NCBI RefSeq assembly: GCF_900088535.1 | Contig: NZ_LT578417.1 | Coordinates: forward strand, 1,860,001-1,924,000 | DNA: 64,000 bases | Reading direction: 5' to 3' | Origin: Cyanobium sp. NIES-981 | GTDB taxonomy: Bacteria; Cyanobacteriota; Cyanobacteriia; PCC-6307; Cyanobiaceae | Shown: positions 3,570 through 9,606 of the stretch, piece after piece | Layout of the letters: each line of letters starts with the position of its first letter | Numbering within the stretch: position 1 is the stretch's first letter | Position numbers and translations under genes: made by a program | Notes under the pieces: generated by a model | Database searches by the model: none | Seen by the model: the letters and a program-made list of their open reading frames with translations, nothing else | Told to the model about the DNA's origin: nothing

Positions 3570-3841
3570 GACAATTCCACCGGGAAGGCGATATAACCCG
3601 GAATGCCATGCACGAAACCTGGCGATTCAGCCGCTTTACCTGTCATCCAATGGCAACAAGTGCAAGCGACGGGCTGCCCGTTCCAGGAAGAGACGTCTCC
3701 CATGGGCGGCGGCAAATAAGGTGGCCCCAGCTGCAGGAGTTCTGGTTCGGATCGTGAAGGTTTCCCTTGCAGTACCCAGTGCTTGGCCAGCCGGCCAGAG
3801 CATGGACGTACAGCGAACGGCACCAGTCCCGGAGCTGCCAG

Positions 3842-4312
3842 ATGAAACTCCAAGCCCTGCTCTCCTTCCTGATCCTGGCGGTCACCGCCATCTTCGCCGC
3901 GTTGAACTGGAAGGCATTCACCACCCCCTCGGATCTCTCCCTGGGGGTTACTTCCATGAACCTGCCGCTGGGGGTGGTGATGCTGGTGTTGCTTGTGGTG
4001 GTCACAGGGCTGTTCCTGCTGTTCGTGGTGGTGCTGCAGACCTCCGCCCTGCTGGAAACCCGGCGTCACCTGGCCGAACTGCGCGACTACCGCGACCTGG
4101 CCGACCAGGCCGAGGCCTCCCGTTTCACCGCGTTGCAGACGGTGATGCTGGAGGAACTCAGCAAACAGGCCAGCCTGACCAGCGAGGCCTCGAGCGCACC
4201 CTCGCCCGGCTGGACCAGCTGGAGGCGCACCTTGGCGGATCGGGCGACACTGGCTCGACGCCAGCAGCCTGAATGGAGAGTCCGGCCACCGGGACGCCCG
4301 AGGGGGCGGTGA
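3842..4312 (+). CDS. LapA-like small membrane protein with probable C-terminal frameshift
   Basis: The protein starts MKLQALLSFL and has a transmembrane helix at residues ~3-21, an extracytoplasmic loop, a second helix at ~42-68 (VVMLVLLVVVTGLFLLFVVV), then a cytoplasmic amphipathic stretch (ETRRHLAELRDYRDLADQAEA). This order matches LapA/DUF1049-type inner-membrane proteins. From about 4187 the reading turns into low-quality Pro/Arg/Gly sequence, while the next frame continues the coiled coil as LERTLARLDQLEAHL and stops at 4272. A one-base indel near 4185-4192 would join the two, so the intact ancestor probably ended at 4272. Whether this is a real mutation or a sequencing error cannot be told here. 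Confidence 0.6.
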   Translation: MKLQALLSFLILAVTAIFAALNWKAFTTPSDLSLGVTSMNLPLGVVMLVLLVVVTGLFLLFVVVLQTSALLETRRHLAELRDYRDLADQAEASRFTALQTVMLEELSKQASLTSEASSAPSPGWTSWRRTLADRATLARRQQPEWRVRPPGRPRGR

Positions 4313-4340
4313 GGCCGCCGGGGATCGGGTGCCAGGGAGG
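4280..4340 (-). pseudogene. Relic of the argJ 5' end
   Basis: Bases 4302-4336 are identical over 35 bases to 3267-3301 inside argJ, and weaker similarity extends to about 60 bases. Read on the minus strand it encodes WHPIPGGLTAPSGVPVAG, matching ArgJ residues 8-25 with a few substitutions. No start or downstream argJ sequence follows, so it is a non-functional duplicate. It lies just upstream of the coaE fusion gene. Confidence 0.8.
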
Positions 4341-4383
4341 GGGCACGGCGGCAGGATGACTCTCACCGTCCTGCCCAGGTGCC

Positions 4384-5844
<1,461 letters not shown>

Positions 5845-5880
5845 CGTCAGGGCAACGCCTGCGGCAGATGTTCCAGGGCC

Positions 5881-7020
5881 ATGCGTTCCATCCCCACCGC
5901 CCTGCCCGTGAACGGCCGCCTCAGCTGGCCGCTGCGCTCGATCACCAAGTCGTTCACCGTCACGCTGCTGCTGAAGCTGGCCGATGCGGGGCGGCTGCAT
6001 CTCGACGATCCGGTGTCCCGCTACGTGCAGGGGGTGCCCAACGGCGATGCGGTGACCCTGCGCGATCTGGCCGCCATGACCAGCGGCCTGCCGGATTACA
6101 CCACGCCGGAATTCATCGCGGCCTTTGAGGCGGATCCGCGGCGGATCTTCACGGCGCGGGAGCTGCTGACCTACGCCTGGAGCCAGCCCCTGCAGGGCCC
6201 GCCGGGCGAGCAGGCGGTGTACACCAACGTGAACACCGTGCTGCTGGGGCAGGTGATCCGGGCGGTGACCGGACGCAGCTTCGAGCACAGCCTGCGCCGT
6301 CAGGTGCTCCGGCCGCTGGGATTGCGGCACACCCTGGTGACTCCCAACGAGCGCCGCTGGCCCAGGCCCCGCCCGGTGGGCTACCAGCGCGAAGATGGGC
6401 GTCTCACCCCCCAGCCCGGCAACCTCTCGATCTTCCGCGCCGCCGGCGAGATGGTGGCCACCCTGCCGGACCTGCGCCGCTGGGCCGGCCTGCTCGGCCG
6501 GGGCCTCCTCCTCAGCCGCAGCACGGCCCGGGAGCGGCGCACGGCCGCCCAGCCCCTGCTGCGCGGCCCCGAGTACGACAGCTACGGTCTGGGCCTGGGC
6601 AGCCTCGAGGGCTGGTGGGGGCACACCGGTGAGGGGCTGGGGTTCACGGCGCTGGTGATGTACGAGCCCCGCTCCCGGGCACGGGCGGCCATCGTGGCGA
6701 ACATCTCCAACCTGCCCGGCGTTCACGCCCCCACCCTGCTGTTTCGCAGGATTGCCCGCCGGCTCGAGGAGGGCGGCATCACCGCTGCGACGGGCGGCCC
6801 CGCCGCCGCCCCCTTGCCGGCGGCGGCCCTCGACAGCACTGCGCAGCGGCTGGCCCGGCGTTGGCAGATCCCGGGACTGGCGGCCGGAGTGTGGCTGCCT
6901 GGTGGCCGTCGCTGGCGGTACCTGGGCGGCGAGGCGGTGCTGGCCGGCGGCGGCTCCGGCGAGAACCGCCAGCGGGCCGGCAACGCCCTGCCCTGGGTCG
7001 CCCTCCCACCACCGCTCTGA
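5881..7020 (+). CDS. Serine hydrolase (class C beta-lactamase/DD-peptidase fold), apparently permuted
   Basis: Catalytic motifs are in the usual order: S20-ITK23, Y114-TN and H248-TG, as in class C beta-lactamases and D-Ala-D-Ala carboxypeptidases. The family normally has ~50-70 residues before SxxK containing IPGxAxGVxxPG and GxA strands. Those are missing at the N-terminus (only 19 residues precede SITK) but appear at the C-terminus, residues ~318-360 (RRWQIPGLAAGVWLPGGRRWRYLGGEA), after a Pro/Ala linker. No signal peptide is visible. The 12 codons between the coaE stop and the ATG are in frame with it. It probably arose by tandem duplication plus end loss. Activity and substrate are unknown. 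Confidence 0.75.
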   Translation: MRSIPTALPVNGRLSWPLRSITKSFTVTLLLKLADAGRLHLDDPVSRYVQGVPNGDAVTLRDLAAMTSGLPDYTTPEFIAAFEADPRRIFTARELLTYAWSQPLQGPPGEQAVYTNVNTVLLGQVIRAVTGRSFEHSLRRQVLRPLGLRHTLVTPNERRWPRPRPVGYQREDGRLTPQPGNLSIFRAAGEMVATLPDLRRWAGLLGRGLLLSRSTARERRTAAQPLLRGPEYDSYGLGLGSLEGWWGHTGEGLGFTALVMYEPRSRARAAIVANISNLPGVHAPTLLFRRIARRLEEGGITAATGGPAAAPLPAAALDSTAQRLARRWQIPGLAAGVWLPGGRRWRYLGGEAVLAGGGSGENRQRAGNALPWVALPPPL

Positions 7021-7103: not shown

Positions 7104-8060
7104 ATGGACCCGGAATCCAGCCCAGCGCAGGGAGGGCGCTTGCCGCTGACCCACGTCCTGCGAGGCGTCTGGAGTGGCTGCTGCGGGCAGCTCCGGCGGA
7201 TCTGGACGCGCAGACCTGTGCTGTGGCTGGAGGTTGAAGGGCCGGAAGGTCGCCACACCACCCTCACGTTCTGCGGCCATCTCGCCTTCAGTGGCGCGCT
7301 GATCGTTGCCAGCGGGATGTTCTATGGGGCCGTGTTCGTCACGGTGTCGGAGATCTCCAACCGCTGGAGAATCTGCCTGCCCCAGCCCCAGACGGAGGCA
7401 GAGGCCACGGCTCAGAGCCAGGAGCTGCAGGCCCGCATCGGCAACATGCGCAAGCGCATCGGCAGCCTCAGCAATGCGGGGGTCAGCATGGCCGTCACCC
7501 CGGGGCAGACCGAGCGCTTGCTGCAGCAGGTGCAGCAGCTGGATCGGGGGCAGCGGCTGGCCTGCACCGTGGGAGTGTTCTTCTTCTCCCATCGCTACGC
7601 AGCCCTGTCGCTGAGCACAGCGGCCGGGATCGCCGCGCTCGGCTCCCTTGCCCTGATCAGCAAGCAGGGCTGGGCGAAATCGAACAACCTCGTGATCAAT
7701 CTCGGCATCACGTCGGCTCTCACCCTCTACACGGCCTGGACGTTCAGCCAGCTCTACGGCCAGGCCGCCAACTACGAGAACTACAGCAGGAAATATGTGC
7801 TCGCCCACGACCTGATCACCACGATCGACAGCGCCATCGCCAATGGCTCCGCCGTGATCACCACCAACCAGGAACCGAACACCCTCAACCTGGCCAGCAA
7901 GCCCGACATGGCCAAGCTGATCAGCCACGTGGATGAGGGGCTGAAGATCATCAACAGACCCGAGTTCAGCGGCGACTCCACCTTCGCCGAGGATTCGTTC
8001 GAAAAAATCGGCGGCATCCTCAAACCTGGCGCCCCGCAGGATTCCGCCGCGGAACCGTGA
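7104..8060 (+). CDS. Hypothetical three-helix membrane protein
   Basis: The 318-residue protein has probable transmembrane helices at ~60-82, ~172-190 and ~200-220, with a Gln/Glu/Arg-rich coiled segment (~100-150) between the first two and a soluble tail. I do not recognise a family. It runs towards gatB, with a 7-base gap between the convergent ends. Base composition and codon use look native. No signal or catalytic motif is evident. Confidence 0.7.
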   Translation: MDPESSPAQGGRLPLTHVLRGVWSGCCGQLRRIWTRRPVLWLEVEGPEGRHTTLTFCGHLAFSGALIVASGMFYGAVFVTVSEISNRWRICLPQPQTEAEATAQSQELQARIGNMRKRIGSLSNAGVSMAVTPGQTERLLQQVQQLDRGQRLACTVGVFFFSHRYAALSLSTAAGIAALGSLALISKQGWAKSNNLVINLGITSALTLYTAWTFSQLYGQAANYENYSRKYVLAHDLITTIDSAIANGSAVITTNQEPNTLNLASKPDMAKLISHVDEGLKIINRPEFSGDSTFAEDSFEKIGGILKPGAPQDSAAEP

Positions 8061-8067
8061 GCGCCGC

Positions 8068-9606
8068 TCAGCCCTTGAGCTTCTCGGCCAGGATCCGGTT
8101 GGCGAGCTTGGGATCGGCCTTGCCGCCGGTCTGCTTCATCAGCTGACCCACGAAGAAGCCCTGCAGTTTGGTCTTGCCGCCGCGGAACGCCTCCACTTCA
8201 TCGGGATGGGCCGCCAGCAGCTCCTCCACGATGGCGGTGAGCGCCGCCGGGTCGCTGATCATGCCCAGCCCGCGCTCGGCCACGATCGCCCTGGCGGAGC
8301 CGCCCTGCTCCAGCAGTTCCGGCAGCAGCTCCTTGGCGATCTTGCCGCTGATCGTGCCGTTCTCGATCAGCTGGATCATCTCGGCCAGCTGCTCGGGCCG
8401 CAGGGGCAGATCGGCGTAGGAGAGCCGGTTGGCATTCACGTGGGCGGCGATGTCGCCGGTGATCCAGTTGGCGGTGGCCTTGGCGTCGGCGCCCGCCGCC
8501 ACCACCGCCTCGAAGTACTCGGCCATGGGGCGTTCATCGGTGAGCACCCGGGCGTCGTAGATGCTCAGGCCCAGCTGGTCGGCATAGCGGTGGCGCTTGG
8601 CGGCGGGCAGCTCCGGCAGTTCGGCGCGCCAGGCCTCCCGCTGCTCGGGCGTGACCTCGATCGGACCGAGATCGGGGTCGGGGAAATAGCGGTAGTCGCT
8701 GCTGCCTTCCTTGGAGCGCATGCTCTTGGTGAGCTGCTTGCTCTCATCCCAGAGGCGCGTTTCCTGCACCACGGGCTCCCCGGCCTCGTAGGCCTTGATC
8801 TGCCGCTGGATCTCGTAATCGCAGGCCTTCTGGATGGCCGAGAAGGAGTTCATGTTCTTGATCTCCACCTTCGTGCCGAAGGGGGCCTCGGGCCCGCGGC
8901 GCACGGAGATGTTCACATCGCAGCGCAGGGATCCCTCCTGCATGTTGCCGTCACTCACACCCAGATAGCGCATGATCCGCCGGATCTCGGAGGCGTACTC
9001 CGCCGCCTCCCGGCCGGTGCGCAGATCCGGCTTGCTCACGATCTCGGCCAGGGCCACGCCGGCGCGGTTGTAGTCCACCAGCGAGTGGGTGGAGCCGGCC
9101 AGGCGGTCGCTGCCGGCGTGCACGAGCTTGCCGGCGTCCTCCTCCATGTGCAGCCGCTCGATGCCGATGCGCTTGAGATAGGTGTCCTTGCCCTTCTCCG
9201 CCACCTCCACCTCGATCCAGCCGTCTTCGGCGATCGGTTCGTCGTACTGGGAGATCTGGTAGTTCTTCGGCAGGTCGGGATAGAAGTACTGCTTGCGGTC
9301 GAACTTGCTGTGCTCGGCGATGTGCAGATTGAGGGCCATGGCGGCCTTCACCGCATACTCCAGCACCTTCTGATTGAGCACCGGCAGGGTGCCGGGCAGG
9401 CCGCACACCACCGGGTCGATGTGGGTGTTGGGGTCGTCGCCGAACGCGGTGGAGGCACTGGTGAAGATCTTGCTGGCGGTGCCGAGCTGCACGTGGGTTT
9501 CCAGGCCGATCACCGCCTCCCAGGCCGGGGCAGCGGCTCCGGCAGCGGCGGCGGGGCGCTCCTGCGGGGCGGTCGGGGGGACTGCTGTGGGGGCGGTGCC
9601 TGCCAT
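8068..9606 (-). CDS. gatB: Aspartyl/glutamyl-tRNA amidotransferase subunit B
   Basis: GatB is the tRNA-binding and kinase subunit of GatCAB, which converts Glu-tRNA(Gln) and Asp-tRNA(Asn) to the amidated forms in the cytosol. The 512-residue protein has WEAVIGLETHVQL, VCGLPGTLPVLN, FDRKQYFYPDLPKNYQISQYD and the C-terminal YqeY-like tail with GKTKLQGFFVGQLMK. The N-terminal ~28 Ala/Pro-rich residues precede the conserved core and are variable in relatives. It is single in its operon here; gatA and gatC are not in the window. Confidence 0.97.
   Translation of the reverse strand: MAGTAPTAVPPTAPQERPAAAAGAAAPAWEAVIGLETHVQLGTASKIFTSASTAFGDDPNTHIDPVVCGLPGTLPVLNQKVLEYAVKAAMALNLHIAEHSKFDRKQYFYPDLPKNYQISQYDEPIAEDGWIEVEVAEKGKDTYLKRIGIERLHMEEDAGKLVHAGSDRLAGSTHSLVDYNRAGVALAEIVSKPDLRTGREAAEYASEIRRIMRYLGVSDGNMQEGSLRCDVNISVRRGPEAPFGTKVEIKNMNSFSAIQKACDYEIQRQIKAYEAGEPVVQETRLWDESKQLTKSMRSKEGSSDYRYFPDPDLGPIEVTPEQREAWRAELPELPAAKRHRYADQLGLSIYDARVLTDERPMAEYFEAVVAAGADAKATANWITGDIAAHVNANRLSYADLPLRPEQLAEMIQLIENGTISGKIAKELLPELLEQGGSARAIVAERGLGMISDPAALTAIVEELLAAHPDEVEAFRGGKTKLQGFFVGQLMKQTGGKADPKLANRILAEKLKG

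Follow-up and report, generated by a model that had tools for sequence, protein, structure and literature searches.

An open reading frame at 5881..7020 on the forward strand of the window, the 64,000-nucleotide stretch of the Cyanobium sp. NIES-981 genome that was analysed, very probably codes for a serine hydrolase of the S12/PF00144 family (DD-peptidase and class C beta-lactamase fold) that is a natural circular permutant. Its 379-aa product, recognised from the ORF list, Pfam and homologues with the same order, consists of two parts that are both homologous to one ancestor and that stand in swapped order, as expected of a natural circular permutation. The observations described below strongly support circular permutation of a PF00144 hydrolase. 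Searches with core-only profiles would pass such a protein as an ordinary serine hydrolase that is short at its N-terminus.

Domain order of the 379-residue protein

The Pfam profile PF00144 (Beta-lactamase) matches aa 8-279 at profile positions 42-314 of 329 (E 1.7e-57), and the whole protein scores 195.5 bits against a gathering cut-off of 27. Because this match begins at position 42, the first 41 profile positions are absent from the N-terminus, and since the nucleophile is S20, only 19 residues lie ahead of it. Upstream extension of the reading frame is limited by an in-frame TAG stop at 5842-5844. The coordinates, frame and motifs given in an earlier note on this DNA, including the 19 residues before SxxK, were correct. 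The new N-terminal segment (aa 1-14, 5881..5922, forward strand, as are all parts of this gene) has no signal peptide as judged by hydropathy and the lack of a lipobox.

The catalytic core spans aa 15-296 (5923..6768), and its motifs are intact. They are S20-I-T-K23 (5938..5949), Y114-T-N116 (6220..6228) and, in the place of KTG, H248-T249-G250 (6622..6630); we take these conserved residues to be the SxxK, YxN and HTG/KTG motifs of the family. In alignment A3, which combines the permuted protein of Synechococcus sp. CS-1328 (genome G103, locus L041) with ten core fragments, S20, T22, K23, Y114, N116, H248 and G250 are invariant and T249 is nearly so. Ser20 would be the acyl-enzyme nucleophile, Lys23 and Tyr114 would act as general bases, and His248-Thr-Gly would lie on a strand beside the active site.

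The protein departs from the canonical linear order, in which an N-terminal helix and strands precede SxxK. After the core comes a new linker, aa 297-313 (6769..6819), that leads from the old C-terminal helix to the old N-terminal helix (model helices 283-297 and 314-327) and is 69% and 41% identical among the permuted proteins. The displaced N-terminal segment follows at aa 314-354 (6820..6942), with a helix at 314-327 and strands at 333-338 and 346-349 assigned from profiles, shuffles and the predicted model. The last residues, aa 355-379 (6943..7017), form a new C-terminus that is less conserved and predicted to be disordered (pLDDT about 27). The earlier note had seen in IPGLAAGVW...GGEA the strand segment that usually precedes the core. 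This stretch, IPGLAAGVW...RWRYLGGEA in fuller form, does lie after the core at aa 330-352, and three comparisons identify it as the missing segment rather than a different domain.

The first comparison uses an HMM built from nine unpermuted sister proteins (L042-L048, L077, L078). It matches each of the three permuted proteins twice, with the core on model positions 64/65 to 353/354 and the tail on positions 16-23 to 60-67, such that the two matches tile the model almost without overlap or gap. For the window protein, the core match (aa 6-296 on model positions 64-353) scores 391.0 bits, and the tail match (aa 315-352 on positions 23-60), weak by itself, scores 1.7 bits (E 0.016 in a search of 3 sequences). 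Core and tail score 403.4 and 12.0 bits (E 1.1e-5; 3 sequences) in the relative G009, and 385.8 and 22.0 bits (E 1e-8; 3 sequences) in G103. Shuffled tails of the same composition provide the second comparison. None of 1000 shuffles reaches the real score for any of the three proteins (the real tails of the window, G009 and G103 score 6.9, 16.9 and 27.2 bits, their best shuffles 3.6, 10.4 and 9.1). Finally, hhalign aligns a profile of the three tails to one of ten canonical proteins at 94.9% (E 4.3e-8), with columns 13-56 of the tails opposite canonical columns 7-50.

The window tail alone reaches no Pfam family, and a profile of the three tails searched against the PDB finds no S12 chain. That search did return four designed Cake propellers, over 18 residues with a best E of 0.0041 and with no stretch passing alone, and these matches are regarded as chance. 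An apparent tblastn match to the tail in L077, when read residue by residue, proved to be low-complexity noise past a stop codon. Fragment alignment A5, in which short N-segments were misplaced, was left out.

Structure prediction, a check proposed in the earlier note, agrees with this order. The AlphaFold2 model of the window protein, computed from alignment A3, has a pTM of 0.85 and a mean pLDDT of 82.4. In it the last core helix (283-297) is followed by a helix at 314-327 and strands at 333-338 and 346-349; the second tail strand is of modest confidence (block pLDDT 57), and aa 350-379 fall under a pLDDT of 50. The model of the canonical sister L042 (pTM 0.93) begins with a helix at 3-20, strands at 24-31, 35-42 and 57-59 and a helix at 63-77, and ends with a helix at 325-339. 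The two models thus list the same elements, but the three that come first in the canonical sister come last in the permuted protein, which would have an ordinary S12 fold.

Sequential structural alignment gives the same picture. The canonical L042 model covers residues 17-358 of 4y7p (Z 43.9, rmsd 2.0, 328 aligned) and 4-345 of the R61 structure 1hvb (Z 41.7, rmsd 2.4, 329 aligned), and the permuted model covers only 58-358 of 4y7p (Z 34.9, rmsd 2.0, 286 aligned) and 46-347 of 1hvb (Z 34.0, rmsd 2.2, 288 aligned). The models place the cut in the loop after the second N-terminal strand. The chain would have been opened in this surface loop, between that strand and the strand leading into the SxxK helix. 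The linker of about 17 residues would join the old ends, a pair of helices adjacent in the fold.

Permuted and unpermuted relatives

The permuted order is found only in the window genome (G000), G009 and G103 in a partial sampling of genomes. The samples, which overlap, comprise 60 relatives, 400 genomes of the family, 271 of the order and 386 of the phylum, together with 298 genomes of an actinobacterial order and a species-genome collection scanned by two short peptide patterns. Any match at 1e-3 occurs in 21 of the 60 relatives, and the G009 protein is 80% identical over query 1-374. Among the 400 family genomes 11 match at E <= 1e-20, with G103 at 62% over query 9-357. Both matches cover the tail, and identities over the full alignment are 79% (G009) and 59% (G103). 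Three of the 271 genomes of the order carry a close member at E <= 1e-60, all of them permuted. The species-genome scan yielded 97 pattern matches and 17 confirmed loci, of which L041 and 14 others were read and two (L056, L057) were left out. No relative was confirmed among 45 pattern-matching stretches of viral contigs, and none of 15 plasmid records covers 80% of the query.

In G009 the gene occupies the same place as in the window, between coaE and gatB; in G103 its neighbours are different. G005 has no permuted gene, and its coaE and gatB are 114 bp apart. In the window the upstream neighbour is coaE (dephospho-CoA kinase; 4384..5844, forward strand), identified by Pfam and also adjacent in G009, and the other end of the insertion site is gatB (8068..9606, reverse strand; Pfam). 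The coaE product has an N-terminal MpaB/Lcp-like domain, which matches the family MPAB_Lcp_cat (rubber oxygenase/MpaB-like) at E 6.9e-13. In the genus, where nine of 13 genomes searched match at 1e-60, this fusion is matched over near its whole length in seven of the nine, and in G005 and G006 over the kinase part only. A 318-aa ORF at 7104-8060, between the permuted gene and gatB, has no Pfam match and is absent from G009; by eye, the DNA after coaE in G003 (L064) contains an end similar to this ORF (FAEDSF...KPGAP) that is apparently a remnant. The permuted protein of G103 carries a Gly/Asp-rich C-terminal extension of about 95 aa (L041 5042-5329; L031 1219-1506).

Unpermuted homologues, which the earlier note suggested looking for, exist and are mostly from Actinomycetota. 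In these proteins the counterpart of the displaced segment precedes the SxxK region. The sister clade (L042-L046, L048, L077, L078) shares with the permuted proteins the signature WPLRS/WPIRS-x-TK, and six of its members (L042-L046, L048) are 43-53% identical to the window protein in the best tblastn segment. It differs in its canonical order, in which the open frame has some 110 residues or more ahead of the SxxK core, and in a hydrophobic export stretch.

A tree built from 24 cores groups the three permuted proteins in one clade (100/99), which nests in a 99/98 clade with eight canonical rows, six of them from Actinomycetota and two from an actinobacterial order. Singulisphaera stands next to the 99/98 clade. 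Four loci were left out of the profile and tree: L051 (cut by a contig end), L054 (internal gap) and the too distant L053 and L055. The other cyanobacterial PF00144 proteins that were read, with L006 and L007 set aside because they had been taken from the wrong strand, keep the canonical order by eye. Horizontal transfer from Actinomycetota would be the simplest origin for the gene, judging from this placement. The permutation is older than the split between G000 and G009, whose cores have a synonymous distance of about 0.44.

Two canonical relatives have features of their own. L054 (about 3740-4462) has its gap in the core and comes from a MAG whose record title, Bordetella parapertussis, looks doubtful. 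L038 (1087-3459, in G103) encodes, within a single open frame, a canonical PF00144 protein with a long C-terminal part in which a metalloprotease-like motif, HEIGHALGLEH, can be seen by eye.

Location, constraint and origin

The old N-terminus, which is the site of the sisters' export signal, is internal in the permuted proteins. With the export signal gone, the enzyme would stay in the cytosol. Upstream of the core the maximum mean hydropathy over 15 residues is 0.17 in the window protein, -0.35 in G009 and -0.06 in L041, and none of the three has a lipobox-like motif (by regular expression) or a hydrophobic stretch of at least 2.0. Such a stretch is present in eight of nine sisters and a lipobox-like tetrapeptide, by the same kind of search, in seven of nine; L043 and L047 have none, and a second match far upstream in L078 was taken for chance. 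A cytosolic location is therefore likely for the permuted enzyme on these sequence features. It is also conceivable, though improbable, that a non-classical route takes the permuted enzyme out of the cytosol and that peptidoglycan is its substrate, as is presumed for the sisters. This would be compatible with permutation and concerns location only. The motif-based export or lipoprotein signals of most sisters favour such a role, but a hydrophobic N-terminus is found in none of the three permuted proteins.

Among solved structures, those closest in sequence and fold belong to a D-stereospecific amidohydrolase, an alkaline D-peptidase and the R61 DD-peptidase. By comparison with them, the enzyme may act on peptides or amides that contain D-amino acids, either by cleavage or by transfer. 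The NCBIfam cut-offs for class C beta-lactamase (NF033085, 56.7 bits vs 415), D-aminopeptidase (NF009622, 48.2 vs 443) and AmpH (NF007943, 71.4 vs 266) are not reached. By analogy, the protein is a candidate acyl-enzyme hydrolase whose substrates would be D-amino-acid peptides or amides; in the cytosol these may be recycled cell-wall peptides. The fullest reading, that an active natural permutant arose when permutation internalised the export end and turned an actinomycetotal secreted D-peptidase into a cytosolic picocyanobacterial enzyme, is tentative, and we put it just short of an even chance.

A quite different explanation is that the N-terminal segment was simply lost and that the C-terminus is an unrelated, non-folding tail on a truncated and perhaps dead hydrolase. 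Comparison of the window and G009 genes by the Nei-Gojobori method bears on this question. The core (dN 0.084, dS 0.44) is under purifying selection. The tail at aa 315-354 has a dN of 0.37 and a dS of 0.54, a high ratio near 0.7. Identity between the two proteins is 86% in the core, 25% in the tail helix and 84% in the tail strands; the corresponding values between the window and L041 are 67%, 12.5% and 64%. The high tail ratio and the 25% helix identity would also fit a decaying tail, as would the failure of the window tail to match Pfam by itself, though the strands are 84% identical. However, lower conservation of the N-segment than of the core is also the rule among canonical sisters (21 of 21 pairs of seven proteins), and the looseness of the tail is thus in part a trait of the family. 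The tail also supplies the missing profile positions in all three species, at scores that shuffling never attains, and the catalytic motifs persist. A truncated hydrolase is therefore very unlikely, and circular permutation remains the preferred reading.

It is less probable still that the protein is the remnant of a two-domain tandem protein, in which the second domain was shortened and the first lost its N-segment, with the present order an unselected by-product of decay. Head-to-tail tandem PF00144 genes do exist. An Acidobacteria MAG (L051 1-3451) carries three PF00144-like genes head to tail as separate genes, with a core end, then a stop, then the N-segment of the next gene in the same frame, and the first gene of the array resembles the sisters of the permuted clade. 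Thus, a substrate for permutation by duplication exists, which does not mean that it served here. But among the relatives read, a partial sample, none has two full PF00144 domains in one ORF, and none pairs the permuted order with a second full domain. The end product of such decay would be the same as that of permutation by duplication, the two differing only in history and in the role of the tail.

Two models of circular permutation, duplication and fission/fusion, are described in PMC3320104. Duplication is a reasonable general route to permutation, and duplication with fusion may have been the route here. The earlier note went further and proposed a tandem duplication that left GGCAACGCC at both junctions. 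The 9-mer is indeed present at 5851-5859 and 6979-6987, and because the copies are 1128 nt (376 codons) apart they share one frame. Its interpretation as a duplication scar is rejected, and that specific route is not supported. The upstream copy is intergenic, in the spacer after the coaE stop and 21 nt before the ATG, and G009 keeps this copy and lacks the downstream one. The repeat is also within chance: when 100-nt stretches of the window were paired at random, 52 of 398 pairs had a word of at least 9 nt in common, and the two flanks themselves have an unrelated word in common that is longer (10 nt). GGCAACGCC was not found on the coding strand of the G103 locus, at the gene-free coaE-gatB site of G005, or after coaE in G003, G004, G006, G008, G011 and G012.

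An assembly or sequencing error that created a chimaeric junction of two copies has a negligible probability and can be set aside, because three independent genomes have one order, with the gene at the same site in one of the other two and elsewhere in the second, the window genome is a single contig and 100% complete, and nothing was found in favour of an error. The order looks like a stable natural rearrangement.

Comparison with known enzymes and permutations

Few enzyme folds have been studied as much as the SxxK fold, of which laboratory permutants exist. A stable natural permutant would reveal which loop can be opened in the course of evolution, and it would allow the effects of permutation on folding and catalysis to be examined in a natural protein. 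Here permutation would also have taken away a secretion signal, with a possible change in the compartment where the enzyme works. The literature searched, in which subscription papers are poorly covered, yielded no natural circular permutant of this fold. Both the fold and the type of rearrangement are known; their combination was not met in this partially covered literature.

The closest structural counterparts are the R61 DD-peptidase of Streptomyces (1hvb, 3pte), the D-stereospecific amidohydrolase 3wwx and the alkaline D-peptidase 4y7p. These enzymes resemble the window protein in core sequence, fold and the SxxK, YxN and HTG motifs. They are unlike it in that the helix and two strands that are C-terminal here are N-terminal there.

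TEM-1 is a class A beta-lactamase. Engineered circular permutants of this enzyme, opened in the Omega loop, are described in PMC3334891. Like the window protein, they are circular permutations of a serine beta-lactamase fold, but as described there they are laboratory-made and opened elsewhere. Saposin and swaposin, according to PMC3320104, represent a natural circular permutation by duplication. They have a different fold, and no tandem intermediate was found in the present case, yet the sequence relation between two natural proteins is the same as the one seen here.
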